Assembly: GCA_026397595.1 (NCBI GenBank)
Contig: JAPLUO010000454.1
Span: 1 to 34,710 of the forward strand
Source of the DNA: Caldifarciminota bacterium
GTDB taxonomy: Bacteria; Hydrothermota; Tepidihabitantia; Tepidihabitantales; Tepidihabitantaceae
DNA: 34,710 nucleotides
Reading direction: 5' to 3'
Positions within the stretch are counted from its first letter, which is position 1. Each line of letters begins with the position of its first letter. The notes beneath the pieces were generated by a model that was not told the origin of the DNA, made no database searches, and was given only the letters and a program-made list of their open reading frames with translations. A program made the translations under genes and the position numbers. Positions 8,490 to 34,522 of the stretch are shown here, one piece after another.

Positions 8490-9305
8490 ATGAAAGTGGT
8501 GCTGCGCGTAATCCTGACCGTGCTACTGGTTATCCTGGGGCTGGAGGTGGGCATCAAGCTCACGCCCGGGCTGGCATCGTGGACGGGAGCCGTTCCTCAT
8601 TCCTCATTCCTCGTTCCTCATCCCTCGTTCCTCGGTCCCCGGTCTCCAGTCTCCCCCGCAGCGCAGCCGGACTGGGGCGGTGGCCGGTTGTCGTTCCCGG
8701 TCGGCTCGGCTACCGCTATCATTGACTCGGTCACAACAGCATCCGCAGAAGACCCGCCGAAAACGCAAGCCTGGTCCGGCCAGGCGGGCGGCGTCGTACT
8801 CCGGCAGAAGTCTGGCACCGATTATGCCCTTACGCTGGCTTTGCCTACTCCCGGTCAGCCCGGCCGGTGCGGGCTGTTTCAATTGCCTTCATCCGACCAC
8901 TTCAAGAGAGAACTCCTTCCGGCGGCGAAAGATGCGGAAGCGCCTGCCCCGGATATCCCTCTCTACCCGCAGTCAAGCTGCCGGATGCAGGTCGGACGTG
9001 GCACTGCCTGTTTTGTCGGATTCTACCTTACTCCCGACAGCGTTGAAGCGGTCCGCTCATTCTACGTACGGACCCTCAGTAAGCTCGGCTGGCAGCGCAT
9101 AACGACGGGAGACGGAAGACGGGAGACGGGCCGGACCGGTCCCCGGTCTCCGGTCTCCGGTCATTCCGTGCTGGAGACCTTCGCAAAGCGCAATGAGGAC
9201 CGGACGGTTGTCGTGCAGTTGAGGAAACAGGACTCGGTAACGACCCGCATCGGCCTGGTCGCGATGATGTCCGGAGGGAGTCCTGACCGTAGCGAAAGGA
9301 AATAA
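8490..9305 (+). CDS. Tad-locus hypothetical protein with N-terminal TM
   Basis: MKVVLRVILTVLLVILGLEVGIKLTPG; starts 4 nt after the preceding stop; contains two low-complexity inserts. Confidence 0.65.
   Translation: MKVVLRVILTVLLVILGLEVGIKLTPGLASWTGAVPHSSFLVPHPSFLGPRSPVSPAAQPDWGGGRLSFPVGSATAIIDSVTTASAEDPPKTQAWSGQAGGVVLRQKSGTDYALTLALPTPGQPGRCGLFQLPSSDHFKRELLPAAKDAEAPAPDIPLYPQSSCRMQVGRGTACFVGFYLTPDSVEAVRSFYVRTLSKLGWQRITTGDGRRETGRTGPRSPVSGHSVLETFAKRNEDRTVVVQLRKQDSVTTRIGLVAMMSGGSPDRSERK
8591..8656. repeat. pyrimidine-arm low-complexity insert R4, in-frame
   Basis: cgttcctcattcctcattcctcgttcctcatccctcgttcctcggtccccggtctccagtctcccc; encodes PHSSFLVPHPSFLGPRSPVSP. Confidence 0.7.
9104..9162. repeat. 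palindromic low-complexity insert R5, in-frame
   Basis: gacgggagacggaagacgggagacgggccggaccggtccccggtctccggtctccggtc; encodes GDGRRETGRTGPRSPVSG. Confidence 0.75.
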
Positions 9306-11242: not shown

Positions 11243-12892
11243 ATGTCGTTGAAGGTCGAAGACGGGAGACAGAAGACGGAAGACGGAAGACCGAAGACCG
11301 AAGACGGTCTCCGGTCCCCGGTCTCCGGTCCTCAGTCCCCGGTCCCCGGTCCCCAGACCCCGGTGCTTGCCGACCCCGAAGCGTCCAAGAATCTCGCCGA
11401 GTTGTTCGATCAGACCAACCGGCTGCTGGCAACCGGCTTCGTCAGCCGCAGCCGGACGTCTCCGGAAGAGAAAGAACCTGCCCCCGGTCAATCGGCCGAG
11501 AGCCGCGACGACGGCCGGCCTGGCATCGGAACTCCCGGGACGATGCCGAACCTGTCGATACCGGCGGGCACCCGGGACGTCGACCGCGAAGCGCTGCCGG
11601 AGACAGCGCCGCCGGCCGACGATGGGTTGCTTGAACTCAAGCAGCGCGCCCATGACGAGCTCCTGAAACGCGTGAACAAACAGAAGCTGAGTTTCGAAGG
11701 GCTCGGCGATGGCGAGTTCCGGGACCGGGTAACCGAAATCCTGAGGATCATACTCGCGGAGCCCTCGACCGTGATTCCACCCGGGTGGACGCGGCAGTCG
11801 CTGTTGTCGGAGCTGCTCAATGATTTCCTCGGCCTGGGCCCGCTCGAGAAGTACCTGGCCGACGATACGGTTACCGAGGTCATGGTGAACCGGCCCGACC
11901 AGATATACGTTGAACGGAAGGGCCGGCTGGAGCTGACCAGCGGGCGGTTCCTGAATGAAAACCAGATCCGCGCCGTGATTCAGCGGATAATCCAGCCGCT
12001 GGGCCGGCACGTTGATGAGGCCGTGCCCTATGTTGACGCCCGGCTCCCCGACGGTTCGCGCGTGCACGTGATAATCCCGCCGCTGGCCCTGAACGGTCCG
12101 AAGGTGACGATCCGGAAGTTCTTCAAGAACAGGCTGACTACGGACGACCTGCTCCGGCTGGGTTCGCTGAGCCGGCAGATGGCCGGATTCCTCGAGATGA
12201 TGGTCAAGGCGCGGGCCAACATCCTGGTCTCGGGCGGGTCCGGCAGCGGCAAGACGACGCTGCTGAACGTTCTCTCCAACTTCATCCCCGACAATCAGCG
12301 GATTATCACCGTCGAAGACGCCGCCGAACTACATCTCAACAAGCATCACGTTATCACGCTTGAGGCCCGGGCCGCAAGCGTCGAGGGCACCGGCGCCGTG
12401 TCGATCCGCGAACTGGTCAGGAACACGCTGCGCATGCGGCCGGACCGAATCGTGGTCGGGGAGTGTCGCGGCGGCGAGGCGCTGGACATGCTGCAGGCGA
12501 TGAATACCGGCCACGACGGCTCCATGACTACGATTCACGCCAATTCCCCAAGGGATGCGCTGGCCCGGCTGGAGACCCTGGTGCTGATGGCCGGCGTGGA
12601 TCTCCCGTCGCGCGCAATCCGGGAACAGATTGCATCAGCGATCAACATCGTGGTCCAGACCGGGCGCATGCCTGACGGTTCACGCAAGATAAACCGCATC
12701 ACGGAGGTTTCCGGAATCGGGGAGAACGCCGTTTTCATGACGCAGGAGATATTCCTCTTCAAGCAACAGGGAATCGACGCTGCGGGTCGGATCATCGGCC
12801 GGTACCAGCCGACCGGCACGATCCCCAGGATCGTCGAGCAGTTGCGCGCCCGGGGAGTCAAGGTCGCCATGGAGGTGTTCGCTGCTGCTTAG
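11243..12892 (+). CDS. cpaF: Tad secretion ATPase CpaF/TadA
   Basis: Walker A 'VSGGSGSGKTTLLNVLS', 'RIITVEDAAELHL', 'LRMRPDRIVVGECRGGEALDMLQAMNTGHDGSMTTIHAN'. Confidence 0.93.
   Translation: MSLKVEDGRQKTEDGRPKTEDGLRSPVSGPQSPVPGPQTPVLADPEASKNLAELFDQTNRLLATGFVSRSRTSPEEKEPAPGQSAESRDDGRPGIGTPGTMPNLSIPAGTRDVDREALPETAPPADDGLLELKQRAHDELLKRVNKQKLSFEGLGDGEFRDRVTEILRIILAEPSTVIPPGWTRQSLLSELLNDFLGLGPLEKYLADDTVTEVMVNRPDQIYVERKGRLELTSGRFLNENQIRAVIQRIIQPLGRHVDEAVPYVDARLPDGSRVHVIIPPLALNGPKVTIRKFFKNRLTTDDLLRLGSLSRQMAGFLEMMVKARANILVSGGSGSGKTTLLNVLSNFIPDNQRIITVEDAAELHLNKHHVITLEARAASVEGTGAVSIRELVRNTLRMRPDRIVVGECRGGEALDMLQAMNTGHDGSMTTIHANSPRDALARLETLVLMAGVDLPSRAIREQIASAINIVVQTGRMPDGSRKINRITEVSGIGENAVFMTQEIFLFKQQGIDAAGRIIGRYQPTGTIPRIVEQLRARGVKVAMEVFAAA
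11256..11363. repeat. palindromic low-complexity insert R6, in-frame at the CpaF N-terminus
   Basis: gaagacgggagacagaagacggaagacggaagaccgaagaccgaagacggtctccggtccccggtctccggtcctcagtccccggtccccggtcccc; encodes VEDGRQKTEDGRPKTEDGLRSPVSGPQSPVPGPQTP. Confidence 0.8.
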
Positions 12893-15625: not shown

Positions 15626-17170
15626 GTGCGTAGATTCCTGGTCCGCGCACTCCTTCCGAGCCCCGGGGTCGGTGCGGCGATTGCCGTATTCGCTGCCACG
15701 CTGGGACAACCCAACAATCCCGATACGCTCTGGCACCTTGCGGTCGGCCGGTGGATTTTCGCCCACCACGCGGTACCCGACATCAGTCGTTTCTACTATT
15801 CAGCGACCACCGGCTTCGGGTACGACTACTCCTGGCTGTCTCAGGCGGTCCTGTTCGGCGCCTACCGGTTGCTCGGCGGGGCGGGCATCGCAATCCTGAA
15901 CTCGGTCGTGGCCGGGTTCATCTTCTACCTCATCTACAAACTGCTGGAACGGAACAGCGCAAACCTGCTGGTGAACTTCGGCGTGCTCGGGCTTGCCTTC
16001 GCGACGATCACGGCTTACCTGTCCGGACGGCCGGTGATGTTCACCGTCGCGTTCCTCACGCTGGAGGTCTTCATCCTCTCCGGTTTCGTCCAATCCCGCT
16101 CCTCCCTCCTCCCTCCTCACTCCTCCCTCCTCACTCCTCACTCCTCACTCCTCCCTCACTCCTCCCTCCTCCCTCCTCACTCCTCACTCCTCACTCCTCG
16201 CGCCTCCCTCCTCATCTGGCTGATTCCCCCGATGACGGCCCTGTGGACTAATCTGCACCCGGGTTTCGCGGTCGCTCCGCTCCTGATTCTCGCGTTCCTG
16301 CCCCTGGCCCGAACGGCCCGGGACCGCCGGACTTTGGCCGTGTGCCTGGCCGCCACCGTAATCGCGATCATCCTCAACCCGTATGGATGGAGGATGTACC
16401 TGATGCCCCTGGAGACTGCCAGGTCAATGTCCATGCTTCGGGGGCTGTCCGAGTGGACCAGCGTTTCCGGCTGGGAGACGGTGGTCTGGGGTTGTCTCGT
16501 CGCACTGGTCACCTGTGGCTTGTCATTGCGGCGGCAACCCCTGCCGGTGATACTGCTCGTCGCGCTGGCTGCCCTTGCGGCCGGAGTGAGCAACCGCAAC
16601 ATGCCGCTGTTCGGAGTAGTCGTAGTGTTTGCTCTCGGCCGGACCCTGCTGCCGGCTCTCGCCCCCGTGTTCGGACGGTCCGGCCTGATTCGGAAGTTCG
16701 ACGTGAAATTCGAGGCCGCCGGCGGCTGGTTCTGGGTCATCGCGATCCCCCTCCTCCTCATCGGTTCTCACTTCTCCCCTCTCGCCTCTCGCCTCCTGCC
16801 GCTGGACCTCGAATTCAACTTCTCTGGCTACCCTGCCGCCGCGGTCCGCTACGTCGAGAACCACGATTGCCCGGACAATCTCTTCGTACGCGAAACATGG
16901 AGCAGCTATCTGTTGTGGGCGATGCCGGACCGGAAGCTCTTCTTCGACGCCAAAGGCGGATTCAGCCGGGAAGCTGCCGAAGCCCATTCCGAGCTCGTCA
17001 AGCCCAAGGCCGGCTGGCGTGACGTTGCCGACCGCTACGGCCTTTCGACGTTCCTGCTCGAGCGCGGCAGTCCGCTCGCCGTCGTCCTCAGCGAGGCTGC
17101 CGACTGGCGTCGAGAGTACTCCGATTCACTCGCCGAGGTCTTCGTGCGCCGCGCAGCCGTGCGGGAGTAG
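15626..17170 (+). CDS. polytopic membrane protein, GT-C glycosyltransferase-like
   Basis: GTG start; 'PDTLWHLAVGRWIFAHHAVPDISRFYYSATTG...YDYSWLSQ' and multiple TMs. Confidence 0.6.
   Translation: MRRFLVRALLPSPGVGAAIAVFAATLGQPNNPDTLWHLAVGRWIFAHHAVPDISRFYYSATTGFGYDYSWLSQAVLFGAYRLLGGAGIAILNSVVAGFIFYLIYKLLERNSANLLVNFGVLGLAFATITAYLSGRPVMFTVAFLTLEVFILSGFVQSRSSLLPPHSSLLTPHSSLLPHSSLLPPHSSLLTPRASLLIWLIPPMTALWTNLHPGFAVAPLLILAFLPLARTARDRRTLAVCLAATVIAIILNPYGWRMYLMPLETARSMSMLRGLSEWTSVSGWETVVWGCLVALVTCGLSLRRQPLPVILLVALAALAAGVSNRNMPLFGVVVVFALGRTLLPALAPVFGRSGLIRKFDVKFEAAGGWFWVIAIPLLLIGSHFSPLASRLLPLDLEFNFSGYPAAAVRYVENHDCPDNLFVRETWSSYLLWAMPDRKLFFDAKGGFSREAAEAHSELVKPKAGWRDVADRYGLSTFLLERGSPLAVVLSEAADWRREYSDSLAEVFVRRAAVRE
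16099..16213. repeat. pyrimidine-only low-complexity insert R9, in-frame in the membrane protein
   Basis: (ctcctccctcctccctcctcactcctcactcctcact)n; encodes SSLLPPHSSLLTPHSSLLPHSSLLPPHSSLLTPRASLL. Confidence 0.85.
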
Positions 17171-24531: not shown

Positions 24532-27500
24532 ATGAAACGAATGAGACGCGCGACCCTCTTCGCATGGCTCGCTTGCTTCTCAGTTCTCCAAGCCAAGCTG
24601 GTCCCGATTCCATGTCTCACTGCCCCCCCCATTCAGCGGCTCACGAGGTCGGAAGCCAAGGAACACTGGGGTCAGGACCCGTTCGGGAATTGCCACGGAG
24701 TCGACATGATGCCATTGCCAAGGCTCGCGACGGGTGACTCCATGCCGATTGCCTTTGTCGTCACGGACCCAGGCCGGGAACAACTCAAGTACGGTATGTG
24801 CTACGAGGCGGGCGAAGAACGATGGATGGACTCGCCGGGCGAATGTGGACAGGTCGGGTTTCAAGGCGACAGCCTGTTCTACGTTCGCGGCGTGTCTATT
24901 GACACGTTCATGTACGAGCAGAGTTCGACGAAGCTATATGCCTACGTTGCCTCCAGAAACTCTCTCAGGATTCAGAGGTTCAGATTCGACGTCACGGCAC
25001 ACACGCTTTCCTACCTCAATGATATCTACTCCACGAATGTGGGCAGAATCGACGATGTCTGCTGCGCTAGAGCGCCGGATGGGGTCTCCTCCGGCGCGTA
25101 CGTCGCGGTGGTGAATTCGTGCACGTCAGTGCTTACTATCCTGGGCGTGAGCAAGACCAACATGAGTGTCACGACTCTGGCGGAGGTCGGGGAACCCGGC
25201 GGAGGGGACAACCAGTTCAGTCAGCCCGAGGGTGTTTGGATAGTCAAGAACATCGACCCCCAGAACGGATACTACGACATCTACGTTGCTGACAGGGGAA
25301 ACTCCCGGGTTGCCCATTTGCACTTTGACCCGGAACACAATCAACTGAGCTGGCAAACGGCGCTCGTGGTCCCGGGCGCGGATTTTGTGGACGTAACTGC
25401 AAACGCGTCGGGGTATGTCTATGCCGTAGACTATTCCGGTGGTAGGCTCGTCGTTTTCGCCCCGGACCTGGCCGAGGTCGCATATGACTACTATGGGTCC
25501 GGTTTCGACCATCCGGTCGAAGCGTCCGTCTACAAGGACGAGTTGGTGGTTACTGAGTGGTGGAGCGACAATGCCGGGATACAGTATTTTCGAATCGTAC
25601 CCGAGATTCAGGACCTTAGGGGCAGCGGCATGTTCGACGCGACGATAGACTCGAGCTTCTGCAAGTTCAACCTCTCGGAGCTTCCGGGATACGTCACAGT
25701 CTCCATCAAGACTGACCCGGAGAGAGTGTTGCTGCAAGACTCGCTTGTGTACCCTGGAGACACGGTCACGGTGTGGTGGGACGGGCGGGATACTCAGGGC
25801 CATCTGGCGATACCCGATGTCTACCAGTTCAGGGTAAGTGTGGAGTTCAGACAAGGCAATCAGGATTCCTTACTCACGGAGGTCAAGTACCTGCCCGACA
25901 CCGTTAAGGGGACTACGCTTTCGTCCGGTGTGTATGCCAGCGCCACATGGGACACGTTGCACGAGCCGTACGTGCTGTCTGGGCACGACTTCAACATCAA
26001 TGGCGGTTCCCACAGCGCTACTTTGACGATACAGCCGGGTGTGCGGGTGATGTTCCACGATTCAGTGGTCAGCCGGACCATCTACGTGCATACTGATGAC
26101 CGGATTGAAGCCCTCGGCACTGCCCAGAAGCCGGTCTACTTCATGCTACATCGCACGATGGCTGAAGGGTTCAATCCTGCCAAGCGCGGCTGGTGGGGTG
26201 GCATCCACTTCTATTCTGGCTCGAACGGCGCGAAGTTCAACAACTGCGCATTTGAGAACGGCGGCTACAACGTGGTCTATTCGAGCACTCCAAACTCGGG
26301 GGTCCTCGTGGACTTCGACAGTTGTCAATTCCGAGGGGCCTGTGGTCGTGCCATCCAAGTGGATTCAGATAGCGCCCGCGAGCGTATTGACATCGATAAT
26401 TGTCATTTCGAGTACTGCGCTGACTATCCGATATTTACCTTGAGAGCCCCGGCCGTCGCGGACGTGTCCGCCACCTGCACATTCGAGAACAACGGTGCCA
26501 ACAACCAGTTCAACGCCATACGGGTGTATGCCGGTACCGGCGATGGGGCTATAGCCAGTAGCTGCACATGGCGCAACTGCGGAACCGGATTTTTCTACCT
26601 GATCATGGAACACGACCTTACTGTCATGTCCTCTACCGGTGGCAATCCAGTGCTCACCATCGAACCTGGTGTAACCATCCGGCTGAGAGGGGATTGCGGC
26701 ATCCAGGTTGGGTCGTTGACCCAGGGTGGCGCGATTGTCGCCCTCGGCCAGGCGAGCGCCCCGATAACCTTTAGGGGCGCAGATAGTGTATGGAACGGGA
26801 TGGAGCTGGCGAAGTGCGCTGGTGCGTGTTCGCTTCGCTATTGCGTGTTCAGAGAGGGCGTGCAGAAGCAGCGGGCGACGTACCACTCATTCCAATACTA
26901 CCCGATGCTCTGGTGCCACGAGAACCAAGCGTCGCCCTGGATATACAGGTGTAAGTTCCTCGATGCGGAGAGGGACATACCGAACCAGTACGGCACGGGC
27001 ATTTGTATAAAGAAAGCCACGCCACACATTGAAGGCTGCAAGTTCCACAACAACGATGCCGGCATAATCGGCGAGTTCAGCGGCGGGCGGTCTTGTGAGG
27101 TCGACTATTGCCAGATCGACAGCGGAGGAGAGGGGTACCGCATCCTCGGCGTCGCCCATGGGGCGCTGCCCAAAATCCAATACTCGAACATATTCCAGAA
27201 TGACTATGGTGCGATCAACTACGACGGTGACGCCTATCTGAACGCACAGCACAACTGGTGGGGGCCAGACAACCAGACCCGCCCGGGCTGGCCGGGCAAC
27301 GGCAACAACGACGTGTATGGTGGTTACGTCTCGTATGATCCGGCGGAGTCACTCTCCTACCCGATGTGGTGCACTGACGTGCAGGTCTGTTCTATCATCC
27401 GACCTTCGGTATTCACGGCGCCGGATACCCTGGCGCCCATGGGGACAGCCCGCAACAACTTCGAAGAGCAGGTCATTCTGACTGCGACGATGCGCATCGG

Positions 27501-30500
27501 AAGCGTGTACGCGGATACCGTGTTGGATACCCTCGCCGCGTATGCAACCGATTCAATCGTGTTCGACACGGTCGCACTCGACACCGGGACGTACACGGTG
27601 GTGTTCAAGGTTTCTATGGCCGGGGATGAGATACCGGCGAACGATTCGATAGTGCAGACAGTGCACGTGCGTGAGGAACGGGACGTGGCCGCAGACGCGG
27701 TCCTGTCGCCGCCGGATTGGATACTGAGCGACACCACCGTAGTCGACACTCCCGTAGGCGTGGTCCACAACTACTATCACTCGACTCTTGAGTTCCCCGT
27801 CACGTTCACCATCGGCGAGAACTACACGCGGACCGAGACCTGTAGCGTCGATTCAGGGCAGACTGATACCCTGTGGTTCCCTCCGTGTACGCTGGCCGTC
27901 GGTCACTATTCGGCGGTCTTCTACACCGACTGCGAGAAGGATACTAACCGTCACAACGACACGATCAGCTACACGGTTGCCGTGCGAGAGTCGATTGACG
28001 CGGCTGCCGCCTACATCATCGAGCCGGCGGAAAGCCTGTACACGGTTGAAGATACGCTTGATTTTGCCGTCAGAGTCGCAAACAACGGAAACGTGGCATT
28101 ATTGCTGCCGGTCAATCTGTATGTCGACAATGACATCATTCAGACGGTGTCCGTCAACGTCGACGCCCACGATTCGGCCACGGCCTCGTTCGACAGCCGG
28201 ACTCTGGTTTCCGGGCAGCGTTGGCTCAAGTATGAGGTGGACCTGGATGGCGATGATAATCCAGCCAACGATACTGTTGCCAAGGGCATCACCGTCAAGG
28301 CTGGAGATTTCTGGGTCGAGCAGCCCGCGCCGGAGGAGTCCGTCGCACGGCTGTGCTGGGATGGCGATCAGCACGTCTACGCCGCGGCCCGGAACGAGCT
28401 GGCGATAGAGCGGTTTGACATGGCGACCAGGACGTGGACGTCGCTGGCCTGTCCGCCGTTCGGAGGTCCGGTGTCCGGCATCACCGCGCTGGACGGCCAA
28501 ATCTATGCGCTGGGCGTGCCCGGCGCCGGCCTGTCGACGACCAGGCGCGGACCCGCCCCTGCTGCGCAACCGTTTTCGCCCGCCCGTGCCGTTGGAACGC
28601 AGAGCCCGAGTGGTCCCAGACTCGACCAAGAGCCTAGCCTTTACCGGTACGAGGCTGACGGCGACTCATGGGTCTTTGTCACCGGCTGCCCGTGCGCAGC
28701 CACGTTGGGTCAGGGTGCCGCGCTCGTGGGCGACGATACGACCAAGCTTTACCTGCTCGACGGTACGAGCAGCCGGCTCTACTCCTACCATATCGAGGCC
28801 GATGTCTGGGACTCCGTGCAGACACCGGTGCTGTTCAACTACCGCGGTGCGGCCGACTGGGGCCGCGGCGGGCTGTATGCGCTGTCCGATTCGCTGAACC
28901 TCTGGAGATACGCGCCCGGCGGCGGCTGGTGGCCGGTCTCATCGCCGGGCGGCCCGGGACTACTACCAAGACTGCCGAGTTACGACCCGGCTATTTGCTG
29001 CGACCCGGTGCTGGATCGGCTGTTCACGTTCTACTTCGGCTCTCTGGGCGGAATCACGAACGGAATGGGCTTCCGCGAGCGCTCCAATCAGTATGGTGGG
29101 GCCTGGATGCTTCGGGCCGGGCTTAGTAGCGAAACTACTGAAGTGTCACTTTGCTTCGGTTCGACTCAGGCCTACTGTCTGGACGGACGAGGGGGCTTCT
29201 GGCGCTACCGGCCGGCACCGTTGTTTGATGCCGCGGCGGTCACAGTGGTCGTGCCCGACACCGTGCCGCGAGAGAGCTCATTTGTGCCAAAGGGCGTGAT
29301 TCAGAATGGATGGAATGATTCGCTGCAGATCGACGCGCATCTGTCAATGGGCGCTTACCATGATGTCCAGACCGTGATTGTGCCACCGCAGACCTGGGAC
29401 ACCGTCGAGTTCGCACCAGAATCTCTGCAGCCCGGCATCTACCAGGAGACGCTGCGAACAACGTTGATCGGCGATAACTATCCGTTCAATGACACGGCGC
29501 GAAGGAATCTGACTGTTCGCTATCGTCGCGACGCGGCCGCAGTCGAGATAGTAGTCCCTCGGGACTGGGTGCCGGCTGAGAGCCTGATTCACCCGGTCGG
29601 GGTGATCGAGAACCGACTAGATGACACGATGTCGATCTGGGCCTACATGACTATCGGCTCGCAGTACGCCGACTCGGAGCTGGTAACGTTGGCCGCCCTG
29701 AGCGACAGCGAAGTCGAATTCGATACCCTCCGGCTGCCGGTCGGTGAGTATGAAGCGGAGTTGCGGGTCAGCGTTGCGGGCGACGAAGTGCCGGAGAACG
29801 ACCACATGTTCGGCGAGGTCGAGGCAAAGGCGGGCGACTACTGGTGGCCCCTGGCTCCTTCCCTGGCATCAGCGCCGCTTCTCGTGGCCGGCGGGCCGGA
29901 ACGAATCTATGCCTTTGACAAGCAGAGCGCTGAGTTCGACCGGTACGGCATCACTTCTTCTGATTGGGACAGCATTGGGGTGACTGGCTACAACGCGCAG
30001 ATATCTGCGTGTCGCCACGGCCAGAACCTCTATGTTCTTGGCAAGTTGTCGGGGACGGGTCCGTATGCCGTCATCACTTGCGACACAGCCAACTTCGTGT
30101 GGCACTCGTTTGGAGGCCCACTGCCCCCCTTGAAGGTGACAGATTACTCCCGGCTCGCGGTCTCCAGCAATGGCACGGTGTACCTGCTGGCTCGTGCACA
30201 ATCGGGCCCCGGAATCTGCTTCTGGAGGTCCAACGGCGGAATACTTTGGGCGTCCCAGCAAGTCCTCGCCGAGACGCTAAGCAGTCGCGCCTCGGTTGCC
30301 TATGACGGCGCGGACCATATCTACCTGCTCACCGGGTCAATGGGACGGTTGTACAAGTATGGCCTCACCCAAAACCAGTGGGACACTGCTCTTACATCGC
30401 TGCAACTGGCTGCTCCAACCACCAGCGCGTTGACGTGCGATTCCGCGCGGCAGCGGCTGTATGCGTTCTGGGCTAGTCCGAACGCGCTGGGCAGCTTCTG

Positions 30501-32997
30501 GTCATATGACGTTGTTCAGGACACGTGGCAGCCGCGCCAGGCGCATCCGTGCCCGGTTGACGCACCGGCGCTCGCCGCTCAAAATGGTTATGTCTACGGG
30601 CACAGCGGCGCAGCCGACACCGCGTTTGCAGTGTACGTGCCGATGCCGGATACTGACGTGGCCGCACTGGCCATACTCTCGCCACCGGACACGGTGCGCA
30701 GCGACTCTTTCTTCCGCCCGACCGGTGTCGTGCAGAATCTGTCACCATGGCTGTTGGGCTTCTCGGTGGAGTTCTTCACCACCAGCCGACAGCTCCTGCA
30801 GTATGTCGAGCTCGAACCGGGCGCATCGGACACGGTTTATTTCGATTCGATTCAGCTTCCGATGGGAATCCAACAGGTGACTCTCACAACGCTTTGCCAA
30901 GGTGACCAGAGACCGGCCAATGACTCGTCCTCGACCGCGGTCATTGTCCGTCTTCCGCAGGACATAGCTGCCTTGGAGGTGTTGTCTCCGGTTGGTGAGA
31001 TAAGGTCAGACAGCCAAGTTGTACCAACGGGGCTTGTGGAGAATCTCTTCGACGAATCTCTTGACGTGTGGGTCCACATGCGGATCGGTAGCGTCTATAG
31101 AGACTCGCAGTTCGTTTCGCTGCCACCCAGTGAACCTGAGACGGTGGCCTTCGTCGCAACCTACCTACCGCTCGGGCTTCACGAGGTGTGTATGAGCGTG
31201 TTGTCTGATGAAGTGCCCGAGAATGACAGCGTGACGGATAGCTGCGAAGTCACCGGCGGCAACTGCTGGATACCGCGCGCCGACTATCTGCAACACACAA
31301 GCGTCAATCTGGTGGATTACGAACCGGGTGGTGCATACGCCATCGGTCACTTCAACTGTGGCGGTGGCTCCAAGCTCTTTTCGCGCTACGCAGCAGATGG
31401 TGATACGTGGCATCAGCTCCCGGAATCGCCACTTGAGGAGGGTGCTTCTGCCGCCTGCCGGAGTGGCACCAAAGTGTACGCGGTCGGGGGATTCGATATG
31501 CCGGGTGTTCGGGCCGCCGTCAGGCGGGGCTCTGGGCCGGCGTTCAGCAACTCGAACGATGGCATCGTCTGCTTTGACGAGGTTGCCGGCACTTGGGACA
31601 CAGTGACGGTGGACGTGGATGCAGGTCCCGGGCTGTACGCATCAGGTGATGACCTCTACGGGTTGGGGGTGGACCCGGACCCGGCCGGGAACTGGTCGAA
31701 GTACGTCATCTCCGAGGACTCGTGGTACGACCTGTCTCCGATGCCGGAGTCCTTGGTTGACTGGACGTCGGGCGCACATGACGGCGGAGACCATGTATAC
31801 GTTCTCACCGGCTCGAGCGGCGAACTCTACAGGTACGACATCTCCCAGGATACTTGGGTTGCTCTCCGGTCTTTGGAGAGCACGACGCCGGCGTGGGCCG
31901 CGCTCGCCTGTGACGCGACGCAAGGCTGCCTGTACGCCTTCTGGACTCCGGACGGGAGCCCAGACTGCTTCTTCAGCTACAGCATCGAAGGAGATAGCTG
32001 GCATAAGCTCGCAGCTTTTCCCTACCCGTACCAGATACGCTATCCATCTGTCTCCGCGTGGGCGGGGAAGGTGTTCGCGTCTTCATCGCGCTATCCTTGG
32101 GACACAACCGAGAACTTTGCTCAGTACGTTCCGGTGCCGTCTTTGGACGTTGCTGCACTGGAAATCCTAGGCCTGCCGGATACGGTCCGGTGCGATACCT
32201 TGGTCCGACCACTTGGAGTGGTTCTGAATTCCGGTAATGCGTATATGCATTGTGACGCCAGATTCGTGTGCGGATCAGACACGCTCCATGAGGTGATCGA
32301 CCTGCAGCCTTGGCAGCAGGACACGGTTGCCTTCGATTCGACATACTTGGACCCCGGGCTGTGGAATGCGGAACTAGTCGCCACGTGTTCCGGCGACGAG
32401 AACCCGGCGGACGACACGGTTCACAGCGCAGTCATGGTCGAAGGTCCATGGGAGCCTCGAACGCCGCCGGCCGCTTTCTATGGAGGCCGGCTGGACGCCG
32501 ACTCAGCCTGGGTATACGGAGCAAGCGAAGAGGACCACAGCGCGGCGATGTGTTCTCTGCAGACCCAGACCTGGGAGCAACTGACACCGACGCCGTTCGA
32601 CTCGGGCTGCATTGACCTGAGCCAGCGCGACGGCAGGCTGTACGCCGTTGGGATTCCGTGCGGCTTCGGTTCCAGTTCAGCAGTCTACACCATACTGCCC
32701 AGAGACACGGTTTGGCAGCTTGTCACTGACAGCCTGCCGGTCGCTCTCGATCCATCGGACCCCGCATGGATAGTCGCGACCGCAGACGGTATCTACCTTG
32801 AGCCTGCATACGGTCAGGAATTCTGGCTCTACCGGTTCGATTCACTCGGCGGTGGCGCTTGGGAGCAGAAGCATCAGGTGCCGATGTCGGTGCACTGGCC
32901 CTGTGCAGTCGATTGGGACCGTGCCGACGCCATATACCTGATGTCGCTACCAATCGTGGCTGCGGCGCAGACGACCTTCTACCTGAAACCTGCGTGA
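24532..32997 (+). CDS. giant modular secreted protein (propeller / beta-helix / CARDB-like / Kelch-like repeats), 5' and central part; prematurely terminated inside a MITE TIR
   Basis: ATG 24532 (gggagg RBS; MKRMRRATLFAWLACFSVLQA signal), not 24205 as in the ORF track. Repeating ~100-aa modules 'D.AA..I..P...V..DS...P.GVV.N......V...IGS.Y.D...V.L......V.FD...LP.G.Y...L.V...GDE.P.ND'. Confidence 0.8.
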   Translation: MKRMRRATLFAWLACFSVLQAKLVPIPCLTAPPIQRLTRSEAKEHWGQDPFGNCHGVDMMPLPRLATGDSMPIAFVVTDPGREQLKYGMCYEAGEERWMDSPGECGQVGFQGDSLFYVRGVSIDTFMYEQSSTKLYAYVASRNSLRIQRFRFDVTAHTLSYLNDIYSTNVGRIDDVCCARAPDGVSSGAYVAVVNSCTSVLTILGVSKTNMSVTTLAEVGEPGGGDNQFSQPEGVWIVKNIDPQNGYYDIYVADRGNSRVAHLHFDPEHNQLSWQTALVVPGADFVDVTANASGYVYAVDYSGGRLVVFAPDLAEVAYDYYGSGFDHPVEASVYKDELVVTEWWSDNAGIQYFRIVPEIQDLRGSGMFDATIDSSFCKFNLSELPGYVTVSIKTDPERVLLQDSLVYPGDTVTVWWDGRDTQGHLAIPDVYQFRVSVEFRQGNQDSLLTEVKYLPDTVKGTTLSSGVYASATWDTLHEPYVLSGHDFNINGGSHSATLTIQPGVRVMFHDSVVSRTIYVHTDDRIEALGTAQKPVYFMLHRTMAEGFNPAKRGWWGGIHFYSGSNGAKFNNCAFENGGYNVVYSSTPNSGVLVDFDSCQFRGACGRAIQVDSDSARERIDIDNCHFEYCADYPIFTLRAPAVADVSATCTFENNGANNQFNAIRVYAGTGDGAIASSCTWRNCGTGFFYLIMEHDLTVMSSTGGNPVLTIEPGVTIRLRGDCGIQVGSLTQGGAIVALGQASAPITFRGADSVWNGMELAKCAGACSLRYCVFREGVQKQRATYHSFQYYPMLWCHENQASPWIYRCKFLDAERDIPNQYGTGICIKKATPHIEGCKFHNNDAGIIGEFSGGRSCEVDYCQIDSGGEGYRILGVAHGALPKIQYSNIFQNDYGAINYDGDAYLNAQHNWWGPDNQTRPGWPGNGNNDVYGGYVSYDPAESLSYPMWCTDVQVCSIIRPSVFTAPDTLAPMGTARNNFEEQVILTATMRIGSVYADTVLDTLAAYATDSIVFDTVALDTGTYTVVFKVSMAGDEIPANDSIVQTVHVREERDVAADAVLSPPDWILSDTTVVDTPVGVVHNYYHSTLEFPVTFTIGENYTRTETCSVDSGQTDTLWFPPCTLAVGHYSAVFYTDCEKDTNRHNDTISYTVAVRESIDAAAAYIIEPAESLYTVEDTLDFAVRVANNGNVALLLPVNLYVDNDIIQTVSVNVDAHDSATASFDSRTLVSGQRWLKYEVDLDGDDNPANDTVAKGITVKAGDFWVEQPAPEESVARLCWDGDQHVYAAARNELAIERFDMATRTWTSLACPPFGGPVSGITALDGQIYALGVPGAGLSTTRRGPAPAAQPFSPARAVGTQSPSGPRLDQEPSLYRYEADGDSWVFVTGCPCAATLGQGAALVGDDTTKLYLLDGTSSRLYSYHIEADVWDSVQTPVLFNYRGAADWGRGGLYALSDSLNLWRYAPGGGWWPVSSPGGPGLLPRLPSYDPAICCDPVLDRLFTFYFGSLGGITNGMGFRERSNQYGGAWMLRAGLSSETTEVSLCFGSTQAYCLDGRGGFWRYRPAPLFDAAAVTVVVPDTVPRESSFVPKGVIQNGWNDSLQIDAHLSMGAYHDVQTVIVPPQTWDTVEFAPESLQPGIYQETLRTTLIGDNYPFNDTARRNLTVRYRRDAAAVEIVVPRDWVPAESLIHPVGVIENRLDDTMSIWAYMTIGSQYADSELVTLAALSDSEVEFDTLRLPVGEYEAELRVSVAGDEVPENDHMFGEVEAKAGDYWWPLAPSLASAPLLVAGGPERIYAFDKQSAEFDRYGITSSDWDSIGVTGYNAQISACRHGQNLYVLGKLSGTGPYAVITCDTANFVWHSFGGPLPPLKVTDYSRLAVSSNGTVYLLARAQSGPGICFWRSNGGILWASQQVLAETLSSRASVAYDGADHIYLLTGSMGRLYKYGLTQNQWDTALTSLQLAAPTTSALTCDSARQRLYAFWASPNALGSFWSYDVVQDTWQPRQAHPCPVDAPALAAQNGYVYGHSGAADTAFAVYVPMPDTDVAALAILSPPDTVRSDSFFRPTGVVQNLSPWLLGFSVEFFTTSRQLLQYVELEPGASDTVYFDSIQLPMGIQQVTLTTLCQGDQRPANDSSSTAVIVRLPQDIAALEVLSPVGEIRSDSQVVPTGLVENLFDESLDVWVHMRIGSVYRDSQFVSLPPSEPETVAFVATYLPLGLHEVCMSVLSDEVPENDSVTDSCEVTGGNCWIPRADYLQHTSVNLVDYEPGGAYAIGHFNCGGGSKLFSRYAADGDTWHQLPESPLEEGASAACRSGTKVYAVGGFDMPGVRAAVRRGSGPAFSNSNDGIVCFDEVAGTWDTVTVDVDAGPGLYASGDDLYGLGVDPDPAGNWSKYVISEDSWYDLSPMPESLVDWTSGAHDGGDHVYVLTGSSGELYRYDISQDTWVALRSLESTTPAWAALACDATQGCLYAFWTPDGSPDCFFSYSIEGDSWHKLAAFPYPYQIRYPSVSAWAGKVFASSSRYPWDTTENFAQYVPVPSLDVAALEILGLPDTVRCDTLVRPLGVVLNSGNAYMHCDARFVCGSDTLHEVIDLQPWQQDTVAFDSTYLDPGLWNAELVATCSGDENPADDTVHSAVMVEGPWEPRTPPAAFYGGRLDADSAWVYGASEEDHSAAMCSLQTQTWEQLTPTPFDSGCIDLSQRDGRLYAVGIPCGFGSSSAVYTILPRDTVWQLVTDSLPVALDPSDPAWIVATADGIYLEPAYGQEFWLYRFDSLGGGAWEQKHQVPMSVHWPCAVDWDRADAIYLMSLPIVAAAQTTFYLKPA

Positions 32998-33191
32998 ATT
33001 CCCCATGTTAGAGCTTCGGAGTTCGGGTTCTTTTCAGGGCGAACTTCACACTTTGTGGGGCACCTCTCCGCATAATCTTAGGCTAACCAAAAGGTAGTCT
33101 AAGATTATGAGCAAAACGGACGTGGGCCTCAAGCTATGCGCGGCTTCAAGCCCCGCCTTAGATGGGAAATTCACGCAGGTTTCAGGTTCTA
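32977..33191. mobile_element. 205-bp MITE-like insertion (32982-33186) with 5-bp TSD TTCTA
   Basis: TTCTA(32977-32981)|CCTGAAACCTGCGTGAATT(32982-33000) ... AATTCACGCAGGTTTCAGG(33168-33186)|TTCTA(33187-33191); internal hairpin cataatcttag...ctaagattatg at about 33070-33109. Confidence 0.9.
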
Positions 33192-33819
33192 TGCCTACTC
33201 GACCAGCGCTGACACATGGGCTGAACTGCCGGACCTGCCGTTCGAGGTCAGCCCCGGGCTGGCGCTCGCCGCTGAGCCGTGCGGGAATCGCGTCTTTGCA
33301 CTCGCCCCGAGCGATTCCGGGACGGTGCTGTGGGAATACAGTGCATTAAGCGGCACCTGGACTCAGCGGCCCTCTCCGCCATGGGTCGGTGACGTCGGCA
33401 TGTCTGCCGCGTTTGCTGCTGGCAACGTGTACGCGCTGACCGGCTTTGAGATGACACCCGGCTGGTTCTGGTGTTATGACCCCTCGTTTGAACTGAATCT
33501 CGGCCGACATCTGGAAGGTGTGGCCGGCGCATCTCAGCCGCTGTTGCGTTGGACATGCACATGCGAACCGAATCCATTCGTGGCACGGACAACCATACGG
33601 TGGCAAGTTCCCAAGCTCTGTGACGTGTCGCTGAAGGTGTACAACACCGCTGGTCAGATGGTCCGCCTGCTGCGGCAGGGAAGTGTGAAGCCGGGCATCT
33701 ACACGACTACCTGGAATGGCTGCGACGGCCGTGGGCGTCACGTCGCTGCAGGCGTTTATTTCTGTACGCTGGAGAGCGGCCAGAAGAGGATTAACAGGAA
33801 AGTCGTTCTAACGGACTAG
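33192..33819 (+). pseudogene. separated 3' part of the giant protein, including C-terminal sorting-like domain
   Basis: Same frame as 24532-32997; 'AYSTSADTWAELPDLPFEV...' continues the Kelch-like propeller; C-terminal 'LKVYNTAGQMVRLL...YTTTWNGCDGRGRHVAAGVYFCTLESGQKRINRKVVLTD'. Confidence 0.85.
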
Positions 33820-33912
33820 CTCTGGCTTGGGCCAGCGGATCGAGTGGGGGCGACTTTGCAACCGTCCCCTCTCACATCACCGGACGCGCTTTATTGCATC
33901 CGGCGGTTGGTC

Positions 33913-33984
33913 AACGGTGTCTACTTCCACACGCTGGACAATGGTGCGACGAGAATCAGCAAGAAACTTGTCCTGACAGAATGA
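33913..33984 (+). pseudogene. orphan second copy of a sorting-domain tail
   Basis: Translates NGVYFHTLDNGATRISKKLVLTE*, paralogous to AGVYFCTLESGQKRINRKVVLTD* ending at 33819. Confidence 0.75.
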
Positions 33985-34004
33985 CCTCCTGACCCTCCCA
34001 CCCC

Positions 34005-34078: not shown

Positions 34079-34522
34079 GTGGACACGGTCGGCGGGCCGC
34101 GTTGGGTCGCGGATTTCTGGGGGCATGTGAAGAGCACGAAACTGGCTATGACAGATTCCATCACAGAGTTTAGGACAGAGTTTCCGGTAGAGTCTATCTT
34201 GGAGTCTGGGATAGAGTCTCCGGTAGATTCTATCTTGGAGTCTCGGTTGGTATCTATCTTGGATTCTATCTTGGAGTATCGGTCAGAATCCAGGGCAGAT
34301 TTTATCTTGGAGTCTCGGTTGGAGTCTCGGCCAGATTCTATCTTGGATTCTCGGTCGGAATCTACCTTGGATTCTATCTCGGTTTCTATCTTACGGTCCA
34401 GGTTGGATTCTATCTTGGAGTCTCGGATAGAATCGCCTTTAGAGTCGGGGTTGGAACCATTCCCCCAATCACCGGGGGGTCGAGGCCGGGGGGTGGCGTT
34501 TTCTGCGTGTATGTATCAGTAA
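34079..34522 (+). CDS. tetrapeptide-repeat ORF ([DE]S[IR]L)n spanning the 12-nt array; coding status uncertain
   Basis: Open frame through the entire array (GTG 34079 or ATG 34148): ESILESGIESPVDSILESRLVSILDSILEYRSESRADFILESRL... Confidence 0.35.
   Translation: MDTVGGPRWVADFWGHVKSTKLAMTDSITEFRTEFPVESILESGIESPVDSILESRLVSILDSILEYRSESRADFILESRLESRPDSILDSRSESTLDSISVSILRSRLDSILESRIESPLESGLEPFPQSPGGRGRGVAFSACMYQ
34154..34453. repeat. 25 x 12-nt in-register tandem array, GA[G/T/A]TCT-N6 units, with 18 GANTC sites
   Basis: Alternating unit types GATTCTATCTTG and GAGTCTCGGTTG with no indel over 300 nt. Confidence 0.9.

Follow-up and report, generated by a model that had tools for sequence, protein, structure and literature searches.

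A giant gene for an extracellular protein, located at positions 24532 to 33819 on the forward strand of the window (the whole stretch of DNA analysed here, 34,710 nucleotides), is interrupted by a 205-bp MITE. We consider it highly probable (roughly 0.92) that this MITE is non-autonomous, of type I and derived from an IS1380-family insertion sequence (IS), that it inserted recently and truncated a T9SS-type gene, and that it belongs to a near-random burst of insertions and is no dedicated switch. Type I MITEs arising from co-resident IS and genes inactivated by MITEs are both well documented (PMC6382973, PMC3542288, PMC4853749; reviewed in PMC10969869), and the kind of event is ordinary.

The element spans positions 32982 to 33186 and was compared by blastn with a full-length IS on contig C389 of the same genome. 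It was assigned no strand, and a transposase remnant within it would read on the reverse strand. The TSD TTCTA flanks it on both sides (32977 to 32981 and 33187 to 33191). Its terminal inverted repeats (TIRs; 32982 to 33006 on the forward strand and 33162 to 33186 on the reverse strand) agree at 24 of 25 positions with one mismatch, including a perfect stretch of 19 bp (CCTGAAACCTGCGTGAATT, 32982 to 33000, with its reverse complement at 33168 to 33186). The interior holds the first 26 nt of a transposase gene (33048 to 33073 on the reverse strand, ATG at 33073 to 33071), which end at a deletion junction with TGT microhomology (33048 to 33050), and an inner inverted repeat CATAATCTTAG...CTAAGATTATG (33071 to 33109, no strand assigned) retained from a hairpin of the parent IS at the transposase start codon. 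Translation showed that all six reading frames are closed by stops, and a protein-coding, in-frame MITE of the Rickettsia palindromic element type (PMC10969869) was thus ruled out. Being short and non-coding, and possessing TIRs and a TSD, the element has the characteristics of a type I MITE. The sequence-only reading had described a MITE-like element of this length with 19-bp perfect TIRs and TTCTA on both sides, and this was borne out by inspection of the sequence and by further copies. Because those copies, in the same genome, are 99-100% identical and have TSDs of their own, the element is real and chance is excluded.

The IS on C389, the only one of its kind in the assembly, is 1,444 bp long and has a perfect 25-bp TIR, the TSD TAGAA and an intact-looking transposase of 434 aa. 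The transposase matches the IS1380 model NF033539 (E=2.4e-82; 276.8 bits against a cut-off of 180) as well as PF13701, and its residues D141, D220 and E333 are invariant among relatives; it is a DDE transposase of the IS1380 family. Its TIR resembles those of relatives (loci L057-L066), and together with the 5-bp TSD it agrees with the TIRs and 4-5 bp duplications of that family. By blastn, MITE positions 1-139 correspond to IS positions 2-140 (94% identity) and MITE positions 137-205 to IS positions 1377-1445 (93%), the two segments meeting at a TGT common to both. The MITE is therefore the first 139 plus the last 69 bases of a C389-type IS, with the interior deleted. The C389 copy is only 93-94% identical, and the true source may be a sister IS copy absent from the assembly. 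Relatives of the C389 transposase within its subgroup, with 44-67% identity over most of their length, occur with related ends in MAGs of many phyla, many of them from groundwater. Plasmid-borne IS1380 transposases are less than 32% identical to it, and the C389 IS is a distinct subgroup of the IS1380 family. A search by sequence found no relatives of the transposase in the PDB. IS1380 has been identified as the outgroup of PiggyBac (PMC10813416); we make no claim of PiggyBac-like TTAA targeting, the TSDs here being 5 bp and merely AT-rich.

On the transposase strand of the C389 IS and 17 relatives, the 3' arm of a hairpin ends at the start codon or a few bases before it (L026, positions 9552-9594 of C389; L057-L083 in relatives), and the inner repeat of the window MITE is its remnant. 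The register was taken from RNAalifold, and the alignment of the 18 IS1380-family sequences was almost ungapped. The hairpin comprises 16 pairs, 13 of which have changed on both sides among the 18 sequences, and 87.8% of cells are paired, a percentage biased upward because 18 of the 24 leaders were chosen for showing a hairpin or being related in sequence. Cells with double changes number 82, compared with a shuffle mean of 28, and slid controls are 24-40% paired; the double changes are not explained by row choice alone. Start-hiding hairpins that act against read-through transcripts are known for other IS. By analogy, this one plausibly hides the transposase start from read-through transcripts and serves as a translational guard. 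A literature search found no report of an IS1380 hairpin at the start codon.

The same element recurs elsewhere in the genome. At least seven copies were counted including that of the window, with at least six others that are near-identical, a number pieced together from copies most of which are cut by contig ends in a fragmented and probably metagenome-derived assembly (494 contigs, 6.6% contamination). Either the element or the full IS is present at ten genome sites, and the TIR was found at no other site in the genome. The search for other genomic copies and for a parent IS with matching TIRs, which the sequence-only reading had proposed as a check, thus found both. One full copy is located on C486 (TSD CTTAA), and half copies are located at the ends of C115, C221, C93, C88, C31 and C446. 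Five of these six halves break off after 134-139 element bases and one after 91, a pattern that would fit a repeat breaking a k-mer assembly. A copy without its first 66 bases was observed inside another secreted-protein gene (L029, positions 2119-2262 of C19), with coding sequence on both flanks; it is decaying or else results from an assembly join. Copies differ from one another by 0-2 bases, with one base, that at element position 139, being private to the window copy, and this near-identity points to a recent burst.

Most of the sites appear to be genic. The C486 copy is inside a PKD-domain protein (488-codon frame). C31 and C93 have the common TSD TTGAA and, when joined, yield one open kinase-like gene (PF01636 in the left half, 3e-7), while C446 and C88, also with TTGAA in common, yield an 815-codon frame; the pairing of the halves is presumed in both cases. 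The C221 copy is probably coding on its single assembled side, and the C115 copy is intergenic. Besides the window copy, at least three and probably five copies are genic, and three of the hit genes resemble surface or secreted proteins. Mostly genic sites are expected of random insertion in a gene-dense genome before selection. Beyond one 31-bp chance-level match, the MITE was not found in 99 relatives; neither was it found in plasmids, nor its TIR in viral contigs. The C389 IS and the C115 MITE are flanked by short-period arrays similar to a degenerate tandem array of 12/24/36/108-bp periods (gagtctcggttggattctatcttgga type) in intergenic DNA of the window (34177-34431).

As assembled, the frame of the giant gene runs from 24532 to 32997 and encodes 2,821 aa. 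Joining the flanks in silico yields a single uninterrupted frame of 3,025 codons (...TTFYAYSTSADTW...), which confirms the ORF of about 3,025 aa from 24532 to 33819 that had been proposed on excision. The protein, characterised by translation, Pfam and a same-genus homologue, consists of beta-helix and Kelch-like repeats (Beta_helix, 3.2e-12; Kelch_6, 7.7e-8) and a C-terminal sorting tail. The first in-frame stop is, as had been noted, a TGA contributed by the TIR (32995 to 32997, forward strand). It is not, however, the sole cause of the break, since three further in-frame stops in the MITE (TAA 33073-33075, TAG 33079-33081 and TAA 33100-33102) bring the number to four. Furthermore, the divisibility of 210 nt by 3 says nothing in favour of excision, because an insertion of any length gives back the original frame once it is removed together with one TSD. 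The 209 codons downstream of the insertion include a severed T9SS-type C-terminal sorting domain (Por_Secre_tail / FlgD-like Ig; 33568 to 33807, forward strand). This piece matches TIGR04183 (T9SS type A sorting; E=2.5e-8) and Pfam FlgD_ig (3.8e-8), in agreement with the sorting-like domain suspected from the sequence. Apart from the MITE, the gene has no stops or frameshifts on either side. Because the same genome encodes SprA_N (SprA-type translocon component), many C25 peptidases and Por_Secre_tail at about 147 places, the lost tail is in keeping with a working T9SS and should matter for export. Without its tail, the truncated product most likely fails to be exported or anchored properly. 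Just 3' of the gene, at 33880-33985, there is also an orphan second copy of the end of the sorting tail (VNGVYFHTLDNGATRISKKLVLTE and a stop), which looks as if it were left over from a duplicated or recombined tail.

A relative of the giant protein, with an open frame of 2,829 codons, is encoded on contig C429 of the same-genus genome G005. It aligns with the joined protein without gaps across the insertion point (FFSYSTSGDSW vs FYAYSTSADTW), and its C-terminus is the same type of sorting tail. Since this homologue reads through the site to the same tail, the gene is truly interrupted. Homologues ending naturally at the LKPA stop without a downstream domain had been named as grounds for doubting the interruption, and the one in G005 instead continues to the tail.

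Taken in order, an IS1380-family IS became the MITE by losing approximately 1.24 kb from its interior, between two TGT triplets, and a transposase of the IS1380 type, possibly that of C389, probably mobilises the MITE in trans. The MITE then entered, presumably recently, the giant T9SS-type secreted-protein gene at the AT-rich 5-bp target TTCTA, where its stops cut the protein short after residue 2,821, so that the sorting tail is lost. The insertion is most probably one among a recent, near-random burst that selection has yet to sort.

The sequence-only reading went further and suggested that the insertion could act as an on/off switch for surface attachment. Such a switch would require frequent precise excision of the MITE to toggle whether the giant protein is exported or anchored. 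Precise excision would indeed give an open frame with conserved residues, whole-IS precise excision is a known mechanism (IS492, IS1301; PMC5493358), and the surface or secreted character of three hit genes would suit it. Nevertheless, restoration of the frame is generic to every insertion with a TSD, and no link between the element and control of the giant gene is apparent. It is neither dedicated to a switched gene nor drawn to one as a hotspot, its copies being dispersed over several unrelated genes, including the kinase-like gene, at differing targets. The assembly also contains no empty allele, in which the joined junction would read GACGACCTTCTATGCCTACTCG: a search allowing up to 2 mismatches returned none. 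With no sign of regulated or frequent excision, the suggestion is unsupported; a switch is possible, yet the present data do not raise it above background, and we regard it as very unlikely. We likewise hold it improbable that an IS1380-derived MITE family favours secreted T9SS proteins and undergoes precise excision through the resident IS1380 transposase acting in trans, with reversible loss and restoration of the sorting tail.

With several copies in the genome and many contigs terminating inside one, the left and right flanks could in principle stem from different copies of the repeat. However, the TSD is identical on the left and on the right, the two flanks are parts of a single gene over whose junction the G005 homologue aligns gap-free, and the window copy has its private base; a chimeric assembly is thus extremely improbable. 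Very improbable, too, is a domesticated insert, in which the truncated protein would be functional and LKPA its natural, element-supplied C-terminus. The otherwise clean frame on both sides would be expected of such a protein, but a recent insertion predicts an intact frame equally well. Moreover, the identical element with identical stops is present in several unrelated genes, and the sorting tail is kept in the G005 homologue and in about 140 other proteins of the genome.

A recently inserted, IS1380-derived MITE can be compared with several known systems. With the IS1380 family it has in common, through the C389 IS, an NF033539-type transposase, and further the CCTGAAaCCtGCGTGAA-type TIR known from relatives in other MAGs and the 5-bp AT-rich target duplication; the family member IS1247 has 1,672 bp, an imperfect IR and a DR of 5 bp (PMC3281130). 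Unlike an IS1380 IS, the window element consists of the two ends only, without a transposase. As in MITEAba12 and ISAba12 of Acinetobacter (PMC6382973), a short non-autonomous element accompanies a co-resident IS with the same TIRs and TSD length and inactivates a gene, whereas the window MITE comes from another IS family and its movement is presumed. MITE-made pseudogenes also occur in other environmental bacteria, with 15 of 147 MITE copies in ORFs in Anabaena sp. 90 (PMC3542288) and hupL interrupted by a MITE in Ca. Thiomargarita (PMC4853749). In contrast to both, copies here are few and most are apparently genic, consistent with a younger burst. On the other hand, IS492 and IS1301 (PMC5493358) likewise inactivate a surface-related gene that excision would restore, but the window element is non-autonomous, with no hotspot and no sign of excision.

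Elsewhere in the window, 7-bp tandem repeats (up to 17 copies of CTCCTCA; 8591-8638, 11257-11364 and 16099-16214) lie near or in a Tad/type II secretion gene cluster. Where they are coding, a change in their length would shift the frame.

A literature search found no report of an IS1380-derived MITE, and in the present case both the IS1380 parent type of a MITE and the deletion behind it can be read clearly. For gene callers the locus is a warning, as the two ORFs there are one gene. It further shows, in an uncultivated bacterium, a gene truncated by insertion at so early a stage that it is otherwise intact. The start hairpin may be a more general point, bearing on how IS1380 elements keep their transposase quiet.
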